38,589 nt of DNA. Source: Thermoleophilia bacterium (lineage in GTDB: Bacteria > Actinomycetota > Thermoleophilia > Miltoncostaeales > Miltoncostaeaceae). The position numbers and the translations under genes are program-made. The notes under the pieces were generated by a model. It did no database searches. It saw only the letters and a list, made by a program, of their open reading frames with translations, and had not been told where the DNA came from. The DNA is taken from the NCBI GenBank assembly GCA_020438485.1, contig JAGQUM010000012.1:443-39031 (forward strand), given 5' to 3'. Positions 11,882 to 22,708 of the stretch are shown here, in pieces. The stretch's first letter is position 1. Every line of letters starts with the position of its first letter.

Positions 11882-13516
11882 TCACCAGCGCCGCGAGCGC
11901 AGCACGCCGGCGGCGACCCAGCCGGCCAGCACGGACGCCGCCACGAACGGCGGCCCCGAGGCCAGCGCCAGCCCCGCGACGTGAGGGCCCCCGTCGGCGA
12001 GTGTGGCGATCATCGCGGACGACACGAACAGCGCGGCGCTGATCACGGACAGGGCGACGCGGTTGACGCTGGCCTGGCCCGTGTGCGCGGCGTCCGCCAG
12101 CCCCGGGACGTGCACGTGGCCCTCCAGCGTGCCCGTCGTGAGGCCCTCCAGCACCTCCGCCACCTGGTACGGGTACTGGCGCACGGTCGCCGCGAGGCGC
12201 TCCACGTCGGCCTCCACGGCCATCGCGAGGCGGTCGGGCCGGTAGCGGCCCATCAGGATGCGCGCGGCGTACGGCCGCGCCAGGGCGAACACGTCGAAGT
12301 CCGGCGACAGCTGCAGCGCGACACCCGACAGCGTGGCGAGCGTCTTGTCGAGCAGCATCCAGTGGCTGGGCAGCGTGACGTCGAGTGAGTAGATGGTGGC
12401 GAAGATCTCACCCACCAGGGCGCGGGCGTCCATCTCGCCCATCGTCTGGCCGCCGTGGCGGCGCAGCACCACATCGAGCTGGTCGACCAGGTCCCGCTCG
12501 CGGCTGCGCGGGTACCGCACGCCCAGGGCCCGCAGCCGGCGCGGCAGCGCCTCGACGTTGTTGTCGAGCACATCCACCAGGAGGCGGACGGCGGCCTCGC
12601 GGTCGCGGGCCGTGAGGTCGCCCACCATCCCGAAGTCGATGAGGCCGATGCGGTCGGCCTCCTGCACGATGATGTTGGCCGGGTGGGGGTCCGCGTGGAA
12701 CGTGCCGTGCGCGAACACCATCTCCATCCACGTCTCGGTGACGCGCGACGCCAGCACACGCCGGTCATCGGGGCTCCACGCGTCGACGTCGAGCTTGTTG
12801 AGCGGCGTCCCCGGCAGGTACTCCATCACCAGCACCCGGCGCGTCGTGAACTCCCAGAACACGGCCGGGACGCGCACGTGCGGGTCGCCGGCGAATCTCT
12901 CGCGGAAGTGCTCGACGGTGCGCGCCTCGATGCCGTAGTCGAGCTCGCGCCGCAGGCTGTGGTCGAACTCGCCCACCAGGCCCGCGAGGTCGACGAACTG
13001 CAGGCGCCGCACCCGCTGCTTCAGGACGGCCGCCAGCTGGTACATCAGGGCCACGTCGGCCTGGACGGTGCGCTCGGCGTCCGGCCTCTGGACCTTGACG
13101 ACCACGTCGGTGCCGTCGACCAGCCGGGCCCGGTGCGCCTGCCCGATGGACGCCGCGGCCAGCGGCTCGTCCACGAACTCGGCGAACGCGTCGCCGACGG
13201 GCCGGCCCAGCTCTTCCTCCAGCACGCGGTGAACGTCGTCCAGCGGGATGGGACGCGCGTCGTCTTGCAGGCGCCGCAGCTCCGCCACCACGTCGGGGGG
13301 CAGCAGGTCAGGCCGCGTCGACAGCAGCTGCCCGAACTTCACGAACGTCGGGCCCAGCTCGTCGAGCATCGCCCGCAGGCGGGGCCCGCGCGTGCGCGCG
13401 TCGTCGGGGCCGGGACCCGGCGCACTGCGGCGGAACGCCCAGCCGAAGCCGTGGCGGGCCGCGACGTGCCCGATCTCGGCGATGCGGTTGAGCTGCTGCC
13501 TGCGCCCGCTGATCAC
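11882..13516 (-). CDS. UbiB/AarF (ABC1) family atypical kinase
   Basis: 544 residues. The family hallmarks are TFVKFGQLLSTRPDLLPPDV (the KxGQ motif), the Ala-rich loop AAASIGQAHRARL, the VVVKVQRP lysine, FHADPHPANI (catalytic loop) and LIDFGMVGDL (metal-binding DFG). Two hydrophobic helices close the C-terminus, as in membrane-associated members. UbiB proteins are ATPases that support quinone or other isoprenoid-lipid biosynthesis; the client here is unknown. GTG at 13516 is the only plausible start. It has no ribosome binding site but follows a TAGCCT box by 7 nt, implying leaderless translation. It is separated from recJ by 52 bp and from the first paralogue gene by 35 bp. Confidence 0.92.
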   Translation of the reverse strand: MISGRRQQLNRIAEIGHVAARHGFGWAFRRSAPGPGPDDARTRGPRLRAMLDELGPTFVKFGQLLSTRPDLLPPDVVAELRRLQDDARPIPLDDVHRVLEEELGRPVGDAFAEFVDEPLAAASIGQAHRARLVDGTDVVVKVQRPDAERTVQADVALMYQLAAVLKQRVRRLQFVDLAGLVGEFDHSLRRELDYGIEARTVEHFRERFAGDPHVRVPAVFWEFTTRRVLVMEYLPGTPLNKLDVDAWSPDDRRVLASRVTETWMEMVFAHGTFHADPHPANIIVQEADRIGLIDFGMVGDLTARDREAAVRLLVDVLDNNVEALPRRLRALGVRYPRSRERDLVDQLDVVLRRHGGQTMGEMDARALVGEIFATIYSLDVTLPSHWMLLDKTLATLSGVALQLSPDFDVFALARPYAARILMGRYRPDRLAMAVEADVERLAATVRQYPYQVAEVLEGLTTGTLEGHVHVPGLADAAHTGQASVNRVALSVISAALFVSSAMIATLADGGPHVAGLALASGPPFVAASVLAGWVAAGVLRSRRW

Positions 13517-13523
13517 GCGGACG

Positions 13524-13529
13524 AGGCTA
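13524..13529 (-). promoter_or_regulatory. -10 box for leaderless ubiB
   Basis: TAGCCT on the minus strand with 7 nt to the GTG of the UbiB-family gene, identical in sequence to the box before the LytR_C gene. Confidence 0.5.
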
Positions 13530-13551
13530 GCAGCGCGCGGCGCCGGGCCCG

Positions 13552-14259
13552 CTACGCGTCGTTGATACGGAAGCGGCCGCTGGCGGAGTAGGCGCCCGCC
13601 GCGTCGCACACGATGCGCACCGAGAAGCCCTCGGTCGTGGGCGCGAAGCCGGGCACGAGCACCACGCCCACCGCGTGCGGGTCGCAGTTCTCGGTGCGGT
13701 CCACGTCGATCACGATCGTGCCCGCGGGCGATCCGTCGCCGCCGGCGCACCAGTCGTGAGGCGCCGACGTCAGCGAGCGGGGGAACCTGACCCGGGCGAT
13801 AACGACCTGGCGGGCCCCGTCAGCCGCGCCGGAAACGGCGAACGACCCGTGGACGGTGGACACGGCACCGGCGGCGGCGTCGCCGGGCACGACCCACTCC
13901 GGCGCGGGCGGCGACGCCTGCGTCGCGCGTGCGGGCGCCTCCAGCGTGGCGACGGCGGCGTCCCCGTGCGCGGGGGTCAGCTCCGCGGCGGGCTCGCGAA
14001 GCGCGGCGTTGAGCTGGTCGAGAACGGCCCGGGCCTCGGCCAGCACGTCCGCACCGGCGAGTCGCGTGTCCGCGGCCCGTGTGGTGACCGGGGCGGCGGG
14101 CTCCGCCGGCCCGGCCCCCTGCACGGGCGGGGTGACGGGGACGGCGGGCTTCGCGGGCGCGGGTCGCGCCGAGCGCTCCAGGGCGTTCAGCCGCGCGAGC
14201 ATCCGCACGATCAGCGCGACGGCGCCGATGAACAGCAGGAGGTTGCGGAACGTCTTCAT
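13552..14259 (-). CDS. Membrane-anchored paralogue 1 with C-terminal GFAP-motif domain, unknown function
   Basis: 235 residues; I do not recognise the family. A single N-terminal hydrophobic helix (residues 6-21) is followed by arginines, which by the positive-inside rule puts the rest in the cytoplasm. A Pro/Ala-rich linker runs to about 136. Residues 137-235 form a predicted beta-rich domain (GSFAVSGAA ... VIDVDRTENC ... GFAPTTEGFS at 204-213 ... ASGRFRI). The next two genes upstream have the same architecture and motif. This copy has three cysteines in the domain (171, 192, 218). The ATG at 14259 matches the paralogues, whose helix starts at the N-terminus; ATG 14301 is also possible. Neither has a good ribosome binding site. 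Confidence 0.72.
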   Translation of the reverse strand: MKTFRNLLLFIGAVALIVRMLARLNALERSARPAPAKPAVPVTPPVQGAGPAEPAAPVTTRAADTRLAGADVLAEARAVLDQLNAALREPAAELTPAHGDAAVATLEAPARATQASPPAPEWVVPGDAAAGAVSTVHGSFAVSGAADGARQVVIARVRFPRSLTSAPHDWCAGGDGSPAGTIVIDVDRTENCDPHAVGVVLVPGFAPTTEGFSVRIVCDAAGAYSASGRFRINDA

Positions 14260-14323
14260 GTCGCGTCCGGTCCGAGATCGCGGTTCGGTCCGCGTGTCCA
14301 TCGGCGCCGCGCGTGCGTTCTTG

Positions 14324-14329
14324 AGTGTA
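14324..14329 (-). promoter_or_regulatory. Candidate -10 box for paralogue 1
   Basis: TACACT on the minus strand, just past the large hairpin that follows paralogue 2. A start about 7 nt downstream would allow either candidate ATG of paralogue 1. Confidence 0.4.
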
Positions 14330-14333
14330 ACGG

Positions 14334-14373
14334 CGCCGGGCCCGCCCCCCGGGTGTGGTTGGCGGGCCCGGCG
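14334..14373 (-). terminator. Large hairpin after paralogue 2
   Basis: A perfect 13-bp GC-rich stem (14334-14346 with 14361-14373) encloses a 14-nt loop, starting 7 nt past the stop of paralogue 2. There is no T tract. Position and strength suggest a terminator separating paralogue 2 from paralogue 1. Confidence 0.6.
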
Positions 14374-14380
14374 GCGGGCG

Positions 14381-16279
14381 CTACGGGACGATCCAGAACG
14401 TGCCGCTGGCCGCGAACGGGCCCTTGGCACGCGACGCCAGACGCAGCGTGAACGCCTCGGTGCTGGGCGCGAAGCCCGGCTCCACCATCACGGTGAGGTC
14501 CTCCGGAGCACAGTTCATCGTGGCCTCGACGCCGAGGACGATGCTGCCCGACACCGCCGCGCCCTCGCCCTTGCGGGTCCAGGAAACGGGGGCGTCGCCG
14601 GCCAGCGGGGCGCGGAGGGTGATCTGGGCGAGGGACTCGTGCCCCGCCTCGAGGGCCATGCCGCCCACGGCGAACCGGCCCGTGAGGGCCTCGTCGGACG
14701 GAAGGGTGGCCGGGGGCGCCACGTCGGGTGCCGCGGCCGCCGGCACGGCGACGGGCGCGGACTCCTTGAACGCGGCGGGCTCGGCGTACGCGACGGGCGC
14801 TGCGCCGACCGGCTCGGCAGCGGCGGCCTCGACCGACGCGGACGCGCGGGCGCTGATCTCGTCGAACACCGACGCCGTGGCCGGGGCGGGCTGCCACGTG
14901 GACCACCCGGCGTCGTGATCTTCCGCCTCGGCGGGCTCCGCGACCGGGGCGACCGCCGAGGGGGCCTGCTCGGCCACGGGAGTCTGCTCGGCGACGGGAG
15001 TCCGCTCGGCGACGGGGGTCTCGGCGGCCGGGGCCGCGAAGTCCCACACCGGGGCCTCCACCACCGGAGCCTGCTCAACCACCGGAGCCTGCTCAACCAC
15101 CGGAGCCTGCTCAACCACCGGAGCCTGCTCGACCACCGGAGCCTGCTCAGCCACGGGAGCCTGCTCGGCCACGCGGGCCTCGGCGACCGGCGCCGCGAAG
15201 TCCCACACCGGGGCCTCCACCACCGGAGCCGGCTCGGCCGCGGGGACCTCGGCGACCGGGGCCGCGAAGTCCCACACCGGGGCCTCCTGGACCACCGGAG
15301 CCTGCTCGGCTACGGGGGCCTCGGCGACCGGCGCGGCGAAGTCCCACACCGGGGCCTCCTCCACCACCGGAGCCTGCTCGACCACCGGAGCCTGCTCAGC
15401 CACGGGAGCCTGCTCGGCCGCGGGGGCCTCGGCGACCGGCGCCGCGAAGTCCCACACGGGAGCCTCGTCCACCACCGGAGCCTGCTCGGCCACCGGAGCC
15501 TGCTCGACCACCGGAGCCTCGGGGGTCTCGCTCGCGGCCCACTCGGCCTCGGCGGCGACGGCCTCAAACGGGGCGGTCACGTCGGCGCCGGCCTCGGCGC
15601 CGCCGAGCCAGGCTTCCTGCGCCGGGTCCGCAGCCCACTCCTCGGCCGCAGGGGCGGCGGGAGCCTCGGACATCCACTCGCCGGGGACGTCGCCGGGAGC
15701 CTCGCCGGCATGCTGATCGGCGACGTGGGCGCTCGCGCCGCCCCACGCCTCGTCCATGTCACCGGGAAGGGGCCAGCCGGGCTCGGTGATGACGGAGCCG
15801 TCGTCCCAGGCGTCGGCGGGGGCGTCCCACGCGTCGGCGGCGGTGGCGGCAGCGGTCTCGGCCGTCGCCAGCTCCGGCTCGCCCGGCTGCGTGCCCATCA
15901 TCTCGGCCCGCATCGCGTCCCAGTCCGGCTCGCCCTCCTGCGCCTGCCCGGCGAACGCGAACTGGTCCGCGGCCTGTGCGGGTGCGGCGGCGGGGGCGCC
16001 CGTCGGGGCCTCCAGCGGCATCGGGGCGGGAGGAGCCGGGGGCGTCGCGTTGGCCTTGCCGCGGCGGCGGCCACGCCAGCGCCCCTCGCCGCGGTCGCGA
16101 CCGGCCTTCGGGACCTTCGCGGCCTTCAGCTTCGGGACCTTGGCGGCCCTGGGCGCCTTCGGGGCCTTGGCGGCCTTCGGCGCGCCTGCGCCCTCGGCCT
16201 GGCGGCGGCGCATGACCAGCAGCAGGGCCACGCACCCGAGCGCCGCGATCAGCAGGACAATGTTGAAGCCGTTCAGCAT
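14381..16279 (-). CDS. Membrane-anchored paralogue 2 with repeat-rich linker and C-terminal GFAP-motif domain
   Basis: 632 residues, family not recognised. An N-terminal hydrophobic helix (6-23) is followed by a strongly basic Lys/Arg/Pro/Ala stretch (about 24-75), then an acidic Ala/Pro/Glu linker of some 450 residues. The linker includes tandem PVVEQA-type hexapeptides and five copies of PVWDFAAP. Residues 533-632 are the conserved domain (GRFAVGGMA ... VEATMNC ... [10 protein letters not shown] at 602-611 ... ASGTFWIVP). The charge pattern predicts a cytoplasmic body tethered to the membrane. ATG 16279 has a good GGAGGA site 8 nt upstream, with a 7-bp hairpin (16299-16318) just before that. 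The linker is about four to five times as long as in the paralogues. Function unknown; a scaffold is a reasonable guess. Confidence 0.78.
15038..15457. repeat. Five dispersed copies of a 12-bp unit encoding VWDF
   Basis: The 12-mer gaagtcccacac recurs at 15038, 15197, 15266, 15338 and 15446 on the plus strand, within longer near-identical blocks. Read on the minus strand it encodes VWDF inside [11 protein letters not shown]. Spacings of 159, 69, 72 and 108 bp are all multiples of three, so the reading frame is kept. Confidence 0.9.
15069..15176. repeat. Six tandem 18-bp repeats inside paralogue 2
   Basis: Six contiguous 18-bp units begin at 15069, 15087, 15105, 15123, 15141 and 15159. The first three are identical (gcctgctcaaccaccgga) and the rest differ at one or a few bases. 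Each encodes a hexapeptide such as PVVEQA or PVAEQA on the minus strand. Near-identity at the DNA level suggests recent slippage expansion. Confidence 0.92.
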
Positions 16280-16298
16280 TGCGGATGTCCTCCGTCAG

Positions 16299-16318
16299 CA
16301 CCGCCATCCCTGGCGGTG
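16299..16318 (-). promoter_or_regulatory. Leader hairpin upstream of paralogue 2
   Basis: A 7-bp stem (caccgcc with ggcggtg) and 6-nt loop end 5 nt before the GGAGGA ribosome binding site. It could affect mRNA stability or translation; no known riboswitch class is recognised. Confidence 0.35.
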
Positions 16319-16395
16319 GGCCGGCCCCGGAGCCCAGGGCCGTTCCGTAAGTTGGGGTTGTTCAGCGGCGTCCGGGCACGGGCCCGCACCTTGGT

Positions 16396-16413
16396 GATCG
16401 GCAGCAGCCGATC
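16396..16413 (-). terminator. Hairpin immediately after paralogue 3
   Basis: A 7-bp stem (gatcggc with gccgatc) with a 4-nt loop begins 2 nt past the TAA of paralogue 3. There is no T tract, so this is a possible weak terminator. Confidence 0.45.
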
Positions 16414-16415
16414 GG

Positions 16416-17225
16416 TTAGTGAGCCTCCGGGTGGCGGACCACGAAACGCCCGCGGGCCACGAAGCGCCCGGGGCCCGCCGCGGCGGCCACGAGCGTCATG
16501 CCCTCGACGCACGGGGCGAACCCGCCGTCGCTCATGACGGCCACGCCGCCCTCGGGGAGGTTCTCGGACGCCTCGACGATCAGCGTCACGTCGCCGCCGG
16601 CGGGGGCCTCGTCCAGGCGGTGAGCGAACAGCACGCGCCCGAACGCCAGGTCGCCGGCCGCGCTGGCCATGCCCGAGACGAAGAAGTCACCATCGCTGAC
16701 GTGGGCGGCGGGCGCGGCGGCCTCCGGCTCGGAACCGAACGTCTCGATGTCCCCGATGCCGGGGCCGGCGGCCACGAACGCATCCCACTCGTTGACGACC
16801 GAGGCCGCCACGGCCTCGGGCCGGGCGGCCGCGGGCGCGCCCACCGGGGCGTCGTACTCGTTCAGGGAGGGGGCGTCGTCCGCCGGGCCCCCGGGTTCGT
16901 GAGCCGCGGGGCCGCCGGCCCACACGGCGAGCGGCATGTCGGGGATGGTGTGCGTGGGCGTGGCGACGGGCTCGAGCGCGGCCCTCCACCCCTCCCGGAT
17001 CTCCTCCACGGCGGGCTCGGTGGACTCCGCCTCGACGCCGGCGGAGTCGGGCCGTGCCACGTACGGCCGCTGCGGGGTCAGCGTCGCGGCGGTCTCGGCG
17101 CTCGCCACGGCCAGGGTGTCGGACGCGTCGCGGCGCTCGGCCTCCTGCGTCGCGGCGTCGATGCGGCCCTTCAGGTACGCCGCCGCCACCAGCACACCCG
17201 CCACCAACACACGGCCGTTCACCAC
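16416..17225 (-). CDS. Membrane-anchored paralogue 3 with C-terminal GFAP-motif domain, unknown function
   Basis: 269 residues with the same plan as its two neighbours. An N-terminal hydrophobic segment (MVNGRVLVAGVLVAAAYLKG) is followed by a charged stretch, an acidic Pro/Ala/Asp linker and a domain at 178-269 (FFVSGMA ... LIVEASEN ... GFAPCVEGMT at 235-244 ... ARGRFVV). It lacks the Trp/Cys insertion of paralogue 1. Two adjacent GTG codons (17225, 17222) can start it; a GGAGG site lies 4 nt before the first. A hairpin (17257-17273, stem ggggac/gtcccc) lies in the leader. It is the first of the three genes after secDF in transcription order. Confidence 0.74.
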   Translation of the reverse strand: MVNGRVLVAGVLVAAAYLKGRIDAATQEAERRDASDTLAVASAETAATLTPQRPYVARPDSAGVEAESTEPAVEEIREGWRAALEPVATPTHTIPDMPLAVWAGGPAAHEPGGPADDAPSLNEYDAPVGAPAAARPEAVAASVVNEWDAFVAAGPGIGDIETFGSEPEAAAPAAHVSDGDFFVSGMASAAGDLAFGRVLFAHRLDEAPAGGDVTLIVEASENLPEGGVAVMSDGGFAPCVEGMTLVAAAAGPGRFVARGRFVVRHPEAH

Positions 17226-17301
17226 GGGGCCTCCGTCGTCGCGCGCCCGCCCGGCTGGGGACGCATGGTCCCCCTATCGGGCGCCGGCCCCCGGCCTTGA
17301 G

Positions 17302-17323
17302 CGCGCGTCGGTAAAGACGCGCG
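17302..17323 (-). terminator. Hairpin after secDF
   Basis: A perfect 8-bp stem (cgcgcgtc with gacgcgcg) around a 6-nt loop starts 5 nt past the secDF stop. No T tract follows, but its position fits termination between secDF and the paralogue cluster. Confidence 0.55.
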
Positions 17324-17328
17324 GCGGG

Positions 17329-20235
17329 TCACGTGCGGCGGCGGCGCTCCTGGATCCTACGGTGGCGGCGCTGACGGTCGCCGGTGGGGCGGTGGCTGCC
17401 CGGCGCCCGCTTGCCGGTCGCCGGGTCCTCGCCGTCCGGCGCGGGATCGGCCTGCGCAGGGTCGTCGCCGGCCGGCGCGGGATCTGCCTCCCGCCCGCGG
17501 GTGGACGACGAGGCGGTGGCGTCCCCCACGTCGGCGTCTTCACCGGCATCCTCATCCTCGAGCCCCTCGGCCAGCTCGCGCGCCGGGGCCATCTCGGCCA
17601 GTCCCGACCCCAGCGCCGGGGCGGCGCCGCCCCGGGAGTCGAGCGCGCGCTCGGCACGCGCCAGCACGTCGACGTCGACCACGTCCGCGTCGATCGTCGA
17701 CACCGCCGCGCGCCGCTTTGCCTTGGCCTGCAGCTTCTTGTCCGCGGGCTCGCGCTCCTTCCAGAACGACGCGAGCGGGGCCGCGATGATGATGGACGAC
17801 ACGCCGCCCGCCAGGATGCCCACCAGGAGGGCCAGTGAGAAGTCCTTGAGCTGGTCCCCACCGAAGAAGTACAGCGCCAGCACCGGCACGAGCGTCGTCA
17901 GCGACGTGATGAGCGACCGGGTGAACGTCTCGTTGACCGAGCGGTTCACGACGTCGCGGTAGCGCGACCCGCGCATCAGCGGCACGTTCTCGCGGATGCG
18001 GTCGAAGACGATCACGACGTCGTACAGCGAGTACCCGAGGATGGTCAGCATGGCGGCGACCGTGGCGCTGGTCACCTCGTGTCCCAGCACCGAGTAGATG
18101 CCGACCGACAGCAGCACGTCGTGCACCACGGACAGCATCGCGGGGACCGCCAACTTGTACTCGAAGCGCAGAACCAGGTAGAGCGCCACGATGATGAAGC
18201 TGAGGACGATCGCCTGGATGGCGTTGTTGATGATCTGGCGCCCGAACGTGGGTCCCACGTCGTCGCGCGTGAGGATCGTCAGGCCGAGCTGGTCGCGCAG
18301 GCCCGCGATGACGGCGTCGCCCGTCTCGGGGCTCAGCGGCTCGGTGCGGATCTGGTAGCCCTGCACGGCGCGGCCGTCGATGGTCTGCGTGGTGCCCTGC
18401 ACCCGCGCATCGGTGACGCCCGCGTCGGACATCACGTTGCGCACCTGCTGCTCGCTGACGGGCTTGGTGTACGACGTGGTGATGCTCGTGCCGCTCTCGA
18501 AGTCGAGGCCCATGTTGAGCCCCTTGACGCCGAGCCAGCCCAGTCCGAACAGCATCGGGATGATGGTGATGGCGGCCCACCAGCGCCAGTGCCCCACCCA
18601 GTCGAAGCTGGGGACGCGCCCCTCGCGCAGACCCGTGTAGCGGTCCTCCCGCAGGAACTTCGAGTTCGCCATCACACCGAAGATCGCCCGGGTGGCGACG
18701 ACGGCAGTGAACAGCGACAGCAGCACGCCGACGGCCAAGGTGAACGCGAATCCGCGGGGCCCGCCGGTGGCGAACAGGAACACGATCAGGGCCGTGGCGA
18801 GCGTCACGACGTTGGCGTCGATGATCGCCGCGATGCCCTTCTTGTAGCCCGCCGCCATGGCCGCGGCGGCGCTCTTGCCCTTGCGGCCCTCCTCGCGGAC
18901 GCGCTCGAAGATGATGACGTTGGCGTCGGCGGCGACGCCGATGGTCAAAATGACACCGGCGATGCCCGGCAGCGTCAGCGTGATGGGCACCAGCACGACG
19001 GCGGCGTAGTACAGCGCGCCGTAGATCAGCAGGGCCAGGGCCGCGACGAGGCCCAGCACGCGGTAGTACGCGATGAGGAACGCCATCACCAGCGCGAGGC
19101 CCACGATGCCCGCGATGACGCCCTGGCGCAGGGACTGCTCGCCGATGGTGGCGTCGACCTGCTTCAGGCTCACCGGCACCAGCCGGATGGGGATGGCGCC
19201 GGAGTTGAGCTGATCGGCCAGCGTGCGGGCCGAGTCGGACGTGAAGTTGCCCATGATGCGGGCGGCGCCGCCGTCGATGCCGAACGGCAGTTCGTTGTAG
19301 TCGATCGTGGGGTTGGAGATCATCTCGCCGTCCAGGACGACGGCGAAGCTCTGCAGTTGCTGCGCGGCCGCGCCGCGCGAGGCGAGCGTCGCGGTGATGT
19401 CCTTGAACTTGTCGCCGCCCGCGTCCGTGAAGTCCATGGTCACGATGGGCTCGCCGCTTCCCCCCTGGCCGACGTCCCGCACGGACGAGGCCCGCGAGAT
19501 GTCGTTGCCGGTGAGACCCGGGTTGTCCTGGAACACGTAGTACTGCGTGGTCTTGGCCCCGTCCGGGCGGCTCTGCAGCACCGGCGTGATCTCGCGCACG
19601 ACGATCAGGCCGCGGGGAACCGACTTGATGGTGATGTCCCTGGGCCTCACGCCCGCGTCACGCACCGCCTTCAGCAACTCCGTGCGCGCCTCGGCCGCCT
19701 TGCCGGGCTCGACCACGACCGGGTCGATGGGCTGGTTCGTGGACCTGTCCATCACGGGCCGCTTCGTGGCCGTGACGAACGCGTACAGGCGCTCGGCGCC
19801 CTTGCCGGGGTCGTTGACGGGCAGGCCCTCCGCCCGGGTGACCGTCGCCCAGAGGTTCCGCGAGGGCGCCCCCTCGACGCTGTCCTGGAAGTCGTAGAAC
19901 GCGAGTTGTGCCGGCCGGATGAGGTTCTTCACCACGTCCTGGGCGTTCTCCTCGCCCGGCAGCGCCACCACGATCTGGTTCGTGCCCTGCGTCTGGATCT
20001 CCGGCTCGGACACGCCGAAGCGGTCGACGCGGTTGCGGATCACCTCGACGGCGCGCGACAGCGAGTCCTGGTTGACCGCCGCCTCGGAGGTGGGCCGGCC
20101 CTCGAGGATCACCTCGACGCCGCCCTGCAGGTCGAGGCCGAGGACTGCGGGCTTCAGCGCGATGGCGACCAGCGACGCGAGGGTCAGGCCGATCACCATC
20201 AGCAGCATCAGGAACGAGCGGCGCGCCTGGCTCAT
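17329..20235 (-). CDS. secDF: Fused protein-export membrane protein SecDF
   Basis: 968 residues joining SecD (about 1-530) and SecF (about 540-825). SecDF uses the proton gradient to help pull preproteins through SecYEG. SecD motifs are LGLDLQGG after the first helix, the large periplasmic region and TIGVAADANVIIFERVREE. SecF motifs are MGLDFESGTS, YDVVIVFDRIREN and NETFTRSLITSLTTLVPVLA. Both halves look intact. After SecF comes a tail of about 140 residues (825-968): first Lys/Arg-rich, then acidic and Ala/Asp/Pro-rich, ending in an Arg/His-rich stretch. This tail is not part of the usual family. ATG 20235 lies 4 nt after the yajC stop. Confidence 0.96.
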   Translation of the reverse strand: MSQARRSFLMLLMVIGLTLASLVAIALKPAVLGLDLQGGVEVILEGRPTSEAAVNQDSLSRAVEVIRNRVDRFGVSEPEIQTQGTNQIVVALPGEENAQDVVKNLIRPAQLAFYDFQDSVEGAPSRNLWATVTRAEGLPVNDPGKGAERLYAFVTATKRPVMDRSTNQPIDPVVVEPGKAAEARTELLKAVRDAGVRPRDITIKSVPRGLIVVREITPVLQSRPDGAKTTQYYVFQDNPGLTGNDISRASSVRDVGQGGSGEPIVTMDFTDAGGDKFKDITATLASRGAAAQQLQSFAVVLDGEMISNPTIDYNELPFGIDGGAARIMGNFTSDSARTLADQLNSGAIPIRLVPVSLKQVDATIGEQSLRQGVIAGIVGLALVMAFLIAYYRVLGLVAALALLIYGALYYAAVVLVPITLTLPGIAGVILTIGVAADANVIIFERVREEGRKGKSAAAAMAAGYKKGIAAIIDANVVTLATALIVFLFATGGPRGFAFTLAVGVLLSLFTAVVATRAIFGVMANSKFLREDRYTGLREGRVPSFDWVGHWRWWAAITIIPMLFGLGWLGVKGLNMGLDFESGTSITTSYTKPVSEQQVRNVMSDAGVTDARVQGTTQTIDGRAVQGYQIRTEPLSPETGDAVIAGLRDQLGLTILTRDDVGPTFGRQIINNAIQAIVLSFIIVALYLVLRFEYKLAVPAMLSVVHDVLLSVGIYSVLGHEVTSATVAAMLTILGYSLYDVVIVFDRIRENVPLMRGSRYRDVVNRSVNETFTRSLITSLTTLVPVLALYFFGGDQLKDFSLALLVGILAGGVSSIIIAAPLASFWKEREPADKKLQAKAKRRAAVSTIDADVVDVDVLARAERALDSRGGAAPALGSGLAEMAPARELAEGLEDEDAGEDADVGDATASSSTRGREADPAPAGDDPAQADPAPDGEDPATGKRAPGSHRPTGDRQRRHRRIQERRRRT

Positions 20236-20239
20236 GCGG

Positions 20240-20560
20240 CTACTCCGGGGCGCCGTCGGCGGCGGGAGGGGCCCCTGCGGCCTCGTCCGCCGTGGCGGCG
20301 GGCGTCACGATCCGCCCGACCGACGCACGGGAAACCCGGATGTCGGTGTCTTCGGAGATCTCGAGGAGCAGCGTGTCGCCGTCCTCGACCTCCGTGATGG
20401 TGCCGTAGATACCCCCGAGCGTCACCACCTCGTCGCCCGGCTTCAGGTGCGAGACCATCTCCTTGTGCTGCTTGGCAAGGCGCCGCTGCGGGACCGTCAT
20501 CACGAACATCAGCAGTCCGGCGACGGCCAGAAACAGCAGCAGGCCGAGTCCATTGTCCAC
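20240..20560 (-). CDS. yajC: Sec translocon accessory protein YajC
   Basis: 106 residues, the normal family size. One N-terminal membrane helix (LGLLLFLAVAGLLMFVMTVPQRR) is followed by the small soluble YajC domain with MVSHLKPGDEVVTLGGIYG and an acidic Ala/Pro tail. YajC forms a membrane subcomplex with SecDF, which is the next gene. The open frame extends upstream, but the GTG at 20560 gives the correct length and has GGAAGG 9 nt before it. A TAAGGT box at 20599-20604 may be the -10 of the yajC-secDF operon, back-to-back with the promoter of the divergent PAP2 gene. Confidence 0.93.
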   Translation of the reverse strand: MDNGLGLLLFLAVAGLLMFVMTVPQRRLAKQHKEMVSHLKPGDEVVTLGGIYGTITEVEDGDTLLLEISEDTDIRVSRASVGRIVTPAATADEAAGAPPAADGAPE

Positions 20561-20680
20561 GCGCGGGCACCTTCCGTCGGGGCGGGCGAATCCGGCGGAC
20601 CTTAGCAGGCGGGGCAGGATGCCCTTCGCCACGCGGATCCGCCCGCACCGCCGCGGCCGCGCGCCGGCCGTCCGCGCTGG

Positions 20681-20686
20681 TACCGT
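20681..20686 (+). promoter_or_regulatory. -10 box for the leaderless PAP2-GT4-FKBP operon
   Basis: TACCGT with 7 nt to the ATG of the PAP2-like gene, and no ribosome binding site between them. It faces away from the yajC promoter in the 133-bp divergent spacer. Confidence 0.5.
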
Positions 20687-20693
20687 CCCGCGG

Positions 20694-21473
20694 ATGTCCG
20701 CCGCCGTGCCCACCCCCGCCGATGGCCTCTGGGCCCGCTGGCGCGGCTGGTGGGAGGTGCTGCTGTTCGCCGCCCTCACCGTCGTCTACGAGGTGGCCCG
20801 CTGGGCGGTGCGGCCCCAGGGCGACGACGCCGTCGCACGCGCCCACGACCACGCGGCAGTCATCGTCGACGCCGAGAAGGCGATCGGCCTGGCCGTCGAG
20901 GGAGACGTGCAGAGGCTCACCCACGACCTGCCTGGCGGCGAGTGGTTCACGACGCAGTGGTACTCGTACGCCCACACGCCCGGGTTCATCCTGTTCTTCG
21001 CGGCCGTGTGGTGGCTGCGCAGGCGCTGGTTTCCGTTCGTGCGCAACGCGTTCTGGATCGGCCACGCCATCGCGGTGCTGGTGTTCTGGGTCTTCCCCAT
21101 GGCTCCGCCGCGGTTCGCGGACCCGGGCCTGAAGGACCCCACGAACGAGGCGCTCAGGGCGGGCGGTGCACTGGATTGGTTCCAGCAGTTCCGCAACGAG
21201 TACGCGGCCATGCCGTCGCTGCACATGGGGTACACGTTCTTCTTCGCGCTCATTCTGTGGTGGCTGCTGCGCGGCCACCGCTGGCGCTGGGTGGTGTGGC
21301 TGTGGCCCGCGACGCTGGTGTGGGTGACGATGGCCACCGCCAACCACTTCTGGCTGGACGGCGTGGGCGGGGCCGCCGTGATGGCGACGGCCCTCGCCAT
21401 CGCCGCGGCGCTCCTGCCCCGCGCCATGCCCCGCACGTGGGCCTACCGCACCCCAACCGAGGACGCGTCGTGA
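20694..21473 (+). CDS. PAP2_3-type membrane phosphatase/inositolphosphotransferase
   Basis: 259 residues with about six hydrophobic segments. The catalytic pair of the Aur1/Ipt1-like PAP2 branch is visible: AAMPSLHMGY and, near the end, TANHFWLDGVGG, with His and Asp in the usual places. WVFPMAPPRF between helices also fits this branch. Such enzymes hydrolyse or transfer phosphate head groups on membrane lipids. The next gene is a glycosyltransferase overlapping by 4 bases (GTGA), so the pair probably works on one envelope lipid. Substrate unknown. ATG 20694 is chosen because it lies 7 nt after a TACCGT box and gives a normal N-terminus. Confidence 0.8.
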   Translation: MSAAVPTPADGLWARWRGWWEVLLFAALTVVYEVARWAVRPQGDDAVARAHDHAAVIVDAEKAIGLAVEGDVQRLTHDLPGGEWFTTQWYSYAHTPGFILFFAAVWWLRRRWFPFVRNAFWIGHAIAVLVFWVFPMAPPRFADPGLKDPTNEALRAGGALDWFQQFRNEYAAMPSLHMGYTFFFALILWWLLRGHRWRWVVWLWPATLVWVTMATANHFWLDGVGGAAVMATALAIAAALLPRAMPRTWAYRTPTEDAS

Positions 21474-22708
21474 GCTCCCCCCTGCGCATCGCGATGGTCA
21501 CCGAGTACGCGTACCCCGTGCTGGGGGGCATCAGCGAGCACGTGCACTTCCTGTCGGCCGAGCTGGCCGCCCGGGGCCACGACGTGCGCGTGATCACGAG
21601 CCGGGCGCCGGAGCCCACCCGCGAGACGGCCGCGCGCGCCGATGCCCTGGCCGAGCGGGACTTCGGCTACCGCACCGTCCGCATCGGCACGAGCCTTCCC
21701 ATCCCCATCAACGGGTCCATCGCCCGCATGACCGTCGACGCCCGCCCGCTGCGGGCCACGCGGCGCGCCATCGGCGACGCCGACGTGGTGCATGCGCAGG
21801 GCCTCGTGGGACCGCTACTGCCGCTGGCCGCCGCCCAGGTGTCGCGCGCGCCCTGCACTGTGGCGACGTTCCATACGTACGTCGAGGGCAGCAAGTTCCT
21901 GTACTGGGCGTGGAAGCTGCCCATGAACCACTGGCTGTCCAAGTTCGACCGGCGCATCGCCGTGTCGCAGGTCTGCGTCGACTCGCTCGTGGGCTTCTTC
22001 CCGGGCCACTACGACGTGATCCCCAACGGAATCGACTGTACGACGTTCACCCCCCTGGAGTCCGAGGCCGACCGCGACCCCGGCCCGCCGCGCATACTGT
22101 TCGTGGGTCGATTCGACCCCCGCAACGGCCTCGCCACGCTGCTGGACGCGGCGCGCATCCTGGCCGACCAGGGACGCGACTTCCGTGTCCAGATCGTGGG
22201 CGACGGCCCGCTGCGGCCCGTGTACGAGCGGCAAGCGCGGCGCCTGGGCGTGTGGGATCGGCTGGAGTGGCTGGGGTTGCTGAAGGATGAGCGCCCCGAG
22301 CTGTACCGCCAGGCGACGGTGCTGGCGGCTCCGTGCACGCTGGCGTCGTTCGGCGTGGTGCTGCTGGAGGCGTTCGCCAGCGGCACGCCCGTCGTGGCGG
22401 CCGATAACGTCGGCTTCCGGCAGGTGATGCGCGACGGCGCCCCGGGGCGGTTCGTGGAGCCCTCGTCGGCCGATGCGCTGGCGGCCGGCCTGGGCGAGGT
22501 GCTGGACGACCCGGCGATGCGCGCCGACTGGTCGGCCCGCGGCCGCCGGGTGGCACTGGAACGCTACGCGTGGCCCACGGTGGCGTCGCGCATCGAGGAT
22601 CTCTACCGTGAGGTGCTGGACGGCCGGACGGCATCGGCCCCGCCCGGTGCCCCCACCAACGGCGCCCGGCCCGGCCGGGCGGACGCCCCCACAAGGAGCC
22701 AGACATGA
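21470..22708 (+). CDS. GT4-family glycosyltransferase (PimA/PimB-like)
   Basis: 412 residues, GT-B fold. The N-terminal domain has GGISEHVHFLSAELAARGHD (acceptor and glycine-rich loop). The C-terminal nucleotide-sugar domain has VIPNGID, ILFVGRFDPRNGL and LLEAFASGTPVVAADNVGF. Members transfer mannose or glucose to phosphatidylinositol, diacylglycerol or similar acceptors. In the usual E-x7-E motif the first Glu is Ala here (ASFGVVLLE), while the second Glu is kept. The start is GTG 21470, overlapping the PAP2 stop; the end overlaps the FKBP start (ATGA at 22705-22708). The Pro/Ala/Arg-rich C-terminal 30 residues look disordered. Sugar donor and acceptor cannot be assigned. Confidence 0.87.
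   Translation: MSSPLRIAMVTEYAYPVLGGISEHVHFLSAELAARGHDVRVITSRAPEPTRETAARADALAERDFGYRTVRIGTSLPIPINGSIARMTVDARPLRATRRAIGDADVVHAQGLVGPLLPLAAAQVSRAPCTVATFHTYVEGSKFLYWAWKLPMNHWLSKFDRRIAVSQVCVDSLVGFFPGHYDVIPNGIDCTTFTPLESEADRDPGPPRILFVGRFDPRNGLATLLDAARILADQGRDFRVQIVGDGPLRPVYERQARRLGVWDRLEWLGLLKDERPELYRQATVLAAPCTLASFGVVLLEAFASGTPVVAADNVGFRQVMRDGAPGRFVEPSSADALAAGLGEVLDDPAMRADWSARGRRVALERYAWPTVASRIEDLYREVLDGRTASAPPGAPTNGARPGRADAPTRSQT

Follow-up and report, generated by a model that had tools for sequence, protein, structure and literature searches.

The FtsZ anchor of Escherichia coli, ZipA, is composed of an N-out helix, a basic stretch, a Pro-rich linker and a C-terminal cytoplasmic domain. Two further systems resemble parts of the locus described below: the foot of the R-pyocin fibre has been described as a trimeric, discoidin-like lectin domain (PMC6363177), and the C-terminal region of RNase E is disordered and carries short binding motifs (PMC11964227). 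The window considered here, that is, the whole stretch of 38,589 nucleotides of a Thermoleophilia bacterium that was analysed (from an assembly of 2.58 Mb, 95% complete), contains three neighbouring genes, TP1, TP2 and TP3, on whose products nothing was found in the literature on Miltoncostaea, on phasin with UbiB, or on bacterial H-type lectins. These proteins form a real and unnamed protein family, in which a known fold, as predicted, occupies an unusual place within an unusual architecture.

Results

The three genes of the window

The TP genes lie between a gene that we take to be secDF and a ubiB-like gene, downstream of which come recJ and then relA (Table 1). A sequence-only reading made earlier had given the places and sizes of these three minus-strand genes exactly (235, 632 and 269 codons), and also their common plan: an N-terminal hydrophobic stretch, a Pro/Ala/acidic linker and a C-terminal domain of about 95 residues. 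The N-terminal helix that it attributed to each protein, however, is strong in TP2 and present in TP1, but short and weak in TP3 and missing from several TP3 orthologues (19-residue Kyte-Doolittle maxima of 2.79, 1.97 and 1.46 for TP2, TP1 and TP3, respectively). The ribosome sites are good, with GGAGG before the GTG of TP3 and GGAGGA before the ATG of TP2, and DNA tandem repeats run within the TP2 linker at approximately 14960-15520. The hairpins and -10 box from which separate transcription had been proposed were not borne out: a scan of positions 13400-17500 gave neither a sigma-70-like promoter nor a T-tailed terminator, a negative that weighs little in a GC-rich actinobacterium, and separate transcription units for the TP genes were discarded. 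Divergent from yajC-secDF, the plus strand carries a gene that looks by eye like a PAP2-type membrane phosphatase (20463-21473) and another that looks like a glycosyltransferase (about 21477-22708).

Table 1. Features of the TP locus (window positions) and of the collagen-stalked relatives (locus positions)
Feature	Position	Strand	Evidence
ubiB-like ABC1 kinase, downstream neighbour	11882..13516	-	PF03109, E 3.7e-73
TP1, 235 aa: N-terminal hydrophobic helix, short linker, C-terminal domain	13552..14259	-	
TP1 C-terminal domain, predicted H-type-lectin-like, residues 136-235	13555..13854	-	profile A2, E 6.8e-34
TP2, 632 aa: transmembrane anchor, basic stretch, long acidic Pro/Ala linker with Trp motifs, C-terminal domain	14381..16279	-	
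TP2 C-terminal domain, predicted H-type-lectin-like, residues 535-632	14384..14677	-	model, mean pLDDT 96.4
TP2 low-complexity linker, residues 81-534, net charge -77	14678..16039	-	
TP2 linker motif PGWPLPGD, codons	15759..15781	-	DNA pattern search
TP2 transmembrane helix, residues 5-23	16211..16267	-	hydropathy and charge
TP3, 269 aa, GTG start: short hydrophobic N-terminus, acidic linker, C-terminal domain	16416..17225	-	
TP3 C-terminal domain, residues 178-269, shorter, without the Trp-containing insertion	16419..16694	-	profile, E 2.3e-29
secDF (presumed), SecD and SecF fused in one gene, upstream neighbour	17329..20235	-	locus kept in relatives
Collagen-stalked-type relatives	L086:1866-2492, L089:1227-1907, L090:7086-7757, L092:7013-7660		

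Homology and history of the duplications

The C-terminal domains of TP1, TP2 and TP3 align over the motifs that the sequence-only reading had listed, with 22 invariant columns and identities to TP1 of 38% and 33%. When the genome was searched with TP1, TP2 was matched at E 1.4e-13 and TP3 only at 0.016; a profile built from TP2-type domains only matched all 15 other domains, the TP3 of the window among them (E 4.5e-16). Paralogy of the three is firm because of the TP1-TP2 match together with the recovery of TP3 domains by the TP2-type profile. In the domain tree, the TP3-type and TP2-type domains are split with moderate support (82-85), with one exception, a gene of genus g10 that stands in the TP3 position but branches off basally on the TP2 side; from this split it follows that the duplication into TP2 and TP3 predates the genera of the family. 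TP1 is found only in the genus of the window (G000, G001), where it forms a fully supported clade inside the TP2 type, and on these sequences it is a later copy of that type, arisen within one genus. Tandem duplication, as first proposed, thus holds for the paralogues, but it took place in two steps separated by the divergence of the genera.

The C-terminal domain: family and fold

No characterised sequence family was matched by the domain in Pfam, NCBIfam, PHROG or the PDB, whether with the three proteins or with 34 domains as queries. TP1 and TP3 met no Pfam family at E <= 10, and TP2 gave matches in its low-complexity linker only, where those to Cementoin and to PHROG families, falling in repeats, were rejected as low complexity. 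None of the 34 domains matched H_lectin (PF09458) at E <= 1; this family is absent from the window genome at E <= 1e-5, and among 246 genomes of the phylum it was met in only two, both distant. A phage origin was likewise rejected, since a tblastn search of 50,697 phage records with the TP2 domain returned a sole match, at E 9.

The AlphaFold2 model of the TP2 domain, made from 34 family sequences (mean pLDDT 96.4), is nearly all beta, a beta-sandwich. Its top matches in the PDB (Foldseek) are H-type lectins, with probabilities of 0.89-0.96 and E-values of at least 0.01, the closest solved structure being Helix pomatia agglutinin (probability 0.96, E 0.011, TM 0.48); the R1 pyocin fibre is also among the closest (probability 0.85), with discoidin II lower in the list. 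The closest viral models are of proteins annotated as H-type lectin domain or tail fibre; the highest probability among them is 1.00 and the highest TM 0.67, at 1.6 A. As no structural match reached E <= 0.001 with this model, what is claimed is a fold and not a family: the TP domain is predicted to have an H-type-lectin-like beta-sandwich. The earlier statement that no known domain is present therefore stands with regard to sequence families, but not with regard to the fold, which is recognisable in the model.

Topology

Among TP2-type proteins whose start is intact, ten were examined, the TP2 of the window included. All have a strong helix, scoring 2.1-3.1 on the Kyte-Doolittle scale over 19 residues; the charge is zero or negative ahead of the helix and +2 to +5 behind it. 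In the TP2 of the window there is no charge before the helix, a net +17 in residues 23-80, and then the strongly negative linker. This charge pattern predicts an N-out/C-in protein. In the sister species G001, TP3 (L037:6903-7250) starts 75 bases after secDF and has only 116 codons, approximately the domain alone, without helix and linker; the TP3 proteins of genera g2 and g6 have no hydrophobic segment either. Given the predicted orientation of TP2 and the lack of a membrane segment in TP3 of three lineages, the TP domains probably face the cytoplasm. Of the membrane-tethered, cytoplasm-facing modules proposed from the sequence, the cytoplasmic side and the tie of TP2 to the membrane are thus upheld by prediction, but the tether is not general, as some TP3 orthologues have no anchor.

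Linkers and tryptophan motifs

Across genera, the TP2 linkers are too divergent to be aligned by eye, and PGWP is nevertheless present in 13 of the 13 tested, compared with 0.7-5.8% for each when shuffled. The usual form of the site is [IV]TxPGWPxPG[DE], followed by another Trp. Searched as a DNA pattern, PGWPxPG[DE] was recovered from the TP2 gene in each of seven genomes that carry TP genes, and two genomes that lack them have no such site. In the window genome the TP2 gene is the sole site of the PGWPLPGD pattern; a second PGWPxPG[DE] site outside the TP2 gene, at G025:C1:1346788-1346810, may be due to chance. A further repeated Trp motif differs from genus to genus: VWDFAAP five times in the TP2 linker of the window, WxPPA in g12, PGIGGWNAEP in g6 and DDWW in g2, all in TP2, and [LV]xEW repeats in the linkers of TP3. 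Aromatic motifs conserved within a fast-evolving acidic linker are, to judge by these sequences, as would be expected of short binding motifs.

Distribution and locus

A profile search across actinobacterial genomes placed the TP domain in one family only, with orthologues in 18 genomes, all of them Miltoncostaeaceae (Thermoleophilia); none was found in other families of the class at E <= 1e-5 (399 genomes of the class), nor in the rest of the phylum at E <= 1e-3 (396 sampled genomes). When genome contigs were scanned with the three window domains, no relative was confirmed; a second scan, with twelve TP2-type domains, yielded nine, all actinobacterial, Thermoleophilia and Miltoncostaeaceae included. 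Weak class-wide matches to an epimerase-like protein in G213 and to a frame of 3,074 residues in G183 were dismissed as chance.

Where the contig permits, the order of genes is secDF, (phasin-like), TP3 type, TP2 type, ubiB, recJ, relA. A single TP gene is present in G002, G003 and G008, and TP genes are absent from g5, g9 and g11, genera that a species tree of SecDF, RecJ and RelA, whose deepest nodes within the family are unresolved, makes sisters of TP-bearing genera; these absences are accordingly losses. The phasin-like gene has about 115-125 codons (for example, G010:C95:2333-2671 and G012:C1:1473117-1473455), and one copy matches PF05597 at E 3.5e-5, below the cut-off of Pfam. It stands between secDF and TP3 in g2, g4, g10 and g12, fills the secDF-ubiB or secDF-recJ gap in g5 (L104) and g9 (L105, L107, L108), where vestigial TP genes had been considered and were rejected in its favour, occurs near secDF in other families too (e.g., G038, G039, G041, G051), and is missing from the locus of the window. 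Thus, the TP pair either entered an older secDF-phasin-ubiB-recJ-relA array or originated within it. The phasin-like protein is possibly an old partner of ubiB. In G011, G018 and G008 (L106, L107, L055) ubiB was not found between secDF and recJ, so it comes and goes there.

Exported relatives in other Thermoleophilia

In other families, the domain profile gave weak full-length matches, with E-values of 1e-4 to 1e-2 per genome. Most of these proteins are 210-230 residues long; they begin with a signal-anchor-like N-terminus, often contain collagen-like repeats, and end in the domain. Aligned by hhalign, the TP and exported domains agree over 110 columns (probability 96.7, P 4.4e-10), a significance that is inflated and truly lower, since these relatives had been picked by the same profile. 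The model of the exported domain, made from five sequences (pLDDT 92.5), has the strand order of the TP domain, and its top matches are the H-type lectins SLL-2, Helix pomatia agglutinin and discoidin II. An invariant Cys pair is present in the exported domains and absent from the TP domains; TP proteins have no collagen match in Pfam, and their N-terminal charge pattern is opposite to the export type. Both forms coexist in G002 and G020 of the family of the window. Judged by their sequences, the collagen-stalked relatives are probably exported, and they may constitute a new family of surface proteins in actinobacteria, whose C-terminal domain has no Pfam family.

Discussion

The best explanation, to which we give nearly an even chance, is that TP proteins form a cytoplasmic scaffold at the inner face of the membrane, in which the heads oligomerise and the motifs of the linkers recruit partners. 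Taking homology, gene order, the linker motif and the anchorless TP3 as its observed ground, and the predicted fold and topology as the layer above, the model would add oligomerisation, recruitment and the scaffold role in the following way: (i) TP2 would be the anchor, with a single N-out/C-in helix, a membrane-proximal basic stretch, an acidic, disordered and motif-rich tether, and a beta-sandwich head; (ii) TP3 would be its co-conserved partner, weakly anchored or not at all, and held by TP2 through its own head, while TP1 would be a younger, short-tethered copy of the TP2 type; (iii) the lectin-like heads could associate with each other, by analogy with the known relatives of the fold, which are trimers; (iv) the Trp motifs would recruit one or more client proteins; and (v) this multivalency, of head association plus motif recruitment, would concentrate clients at the membrane. 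The first candidate client, from its position, would be the UbiB-like protein, whose gene most often lies immediately downstream. Counting against the scaffold are structural matches short of Foldseek significance and a topology predicted from hydropathy and charge; moreover, the Trp- and Pro-rich linkers could be mere spacers, and the TP genes are missing from several genera, hence their role is dispensable or replaceable. A bolder form, in which lectin-fold oligomers on Trp-motif tethers would have TP2 and TP3 co-assemble in the cytoplasm into a membrane-bound, client-gathering cluster or condensate, a lineage-specific membrane organiser, is considered doubtful.

Other functions could be imagined for the same proteins. 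In most genomes whose locus is complete, TP2 (or TP1) lies directly upstream of ubiB, and in several genera the locus also holds the phasin-like gene; this would suit a lipid or quinone system with the ubiB-like kinase and the phasin-like protein, in which the TP proteins might, for instance, serve UbiB as a docking platform. We regard it as unlikely, because g5, g9 and other families have ubiB but no TP genes, in G008 a TP gene is present at a locus where ubiB was not found, and the whole argument is one of gene neighbourhood. The predicted fold of H-type lectins and the predicted membrane location of TP2 could also indicate a carbohydrate binder of the cytoplasmic face, whose lectin-like domain would hold a sugar-bearing ligand, for instance a nucleotide sugar or an envelope precursor linked to lipid, ahead of its flipping across the membrane; this seems rather improbable, as PF09458 is not matched, the fold may have a structural role in many proteins, phage tail tips among them, and the cluster holds no envelope-sugar gene.

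If the TP domain lay outside the cell, with the Pro/Ala linker spanning the wall, it would resemble its closest sequence relatives, which are probably exported, with their signal-anchor-like N-terminus, collagen repeats and conserved Cys pair; it is very improbable, however, that TP proteins are surface proteins of this kind, when the TP2 orthologues have the opposite charge pattern, the TP3 of G001, g2 and g6 have neither signal nor membrane segment, and the TP domains are devoid of the Cys pair. The sequence-only reading had suggested a link to export, in which the TP proteins would be accessories of the SecDF-YajC machinery, as in the window, and likewise in some genera, secDF is immediately followed by their genes. 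A survey of the neighbourhood found the TP genes at a fixed locus, but secDF is conserved without them in g5, g9, g11 and the rest of the class, a phasin-like gene comes between secDF and TP3 in several genera, and the secDF-recJ-relA order, with ubiB in its slot, is older than the TP genes; their entry into, or origin within, an older array therefore argues against a special tie to SecDF, the suggestion that we find the least credible of all.

If the scaffold were confirmed, an H-type-lectin-like fold, known from extracellular binders and phage tail tips, would be serving an intracellular role in a bacterium, and this little-studied family would provide a simple membrane scaffold with a defined motif, PGWPxPG. 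The presence of TP genes and their clean losses at a fixed locus leave their function open to comparison among close relatives. The interest is mainly for specialists in the organisation of the bacterial cell.

With respect to the known systems, ZipA has the same architecture as TP2, by prediction from hydropathy and charge, but its FtsZ-binding domain is unrelated to the TP head in sequence and in fold: the ZipA C-terminal domain has no Pfam match in the TP proteins, and no ZipA structure is among the best 50 PDB matches, so the likeness is one of working plan only. The TP2 linker likewise recalls the C-terminal region of RNase E, disordered and with short motifs (PMC11964227); the TP head is unrelated there too. 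The exported relatives of Table 1 share with TP the homologous C-terminal domain, its strand order and the top structural matches; they differ in the export-type N-terminus, the collagen-like stalk of some, the Cys pair, and a location away from the secDF locus. With the H-type lectins (Helix pomatia agglutinin, discoidin I/II, SLL-2; PF09458) the TP domain has in common the predicted beta-sandwich, although no sequence match exists, Foldseek gives E 0.01 at best with TM of about 0.5, and the TP domain is, by prediction, cytoplasmic, unlike those lectins. Finally, the foot of R-type pyocins and phage tail proteins resemble TP both in fold and in carrying the domain C-terminally, on the tip of a long stalk (PMC6363177); those tips are extracellular, trimeric and receptor-binding, whereas the TP stalk is a low-complexity linker that is probably intracellular.
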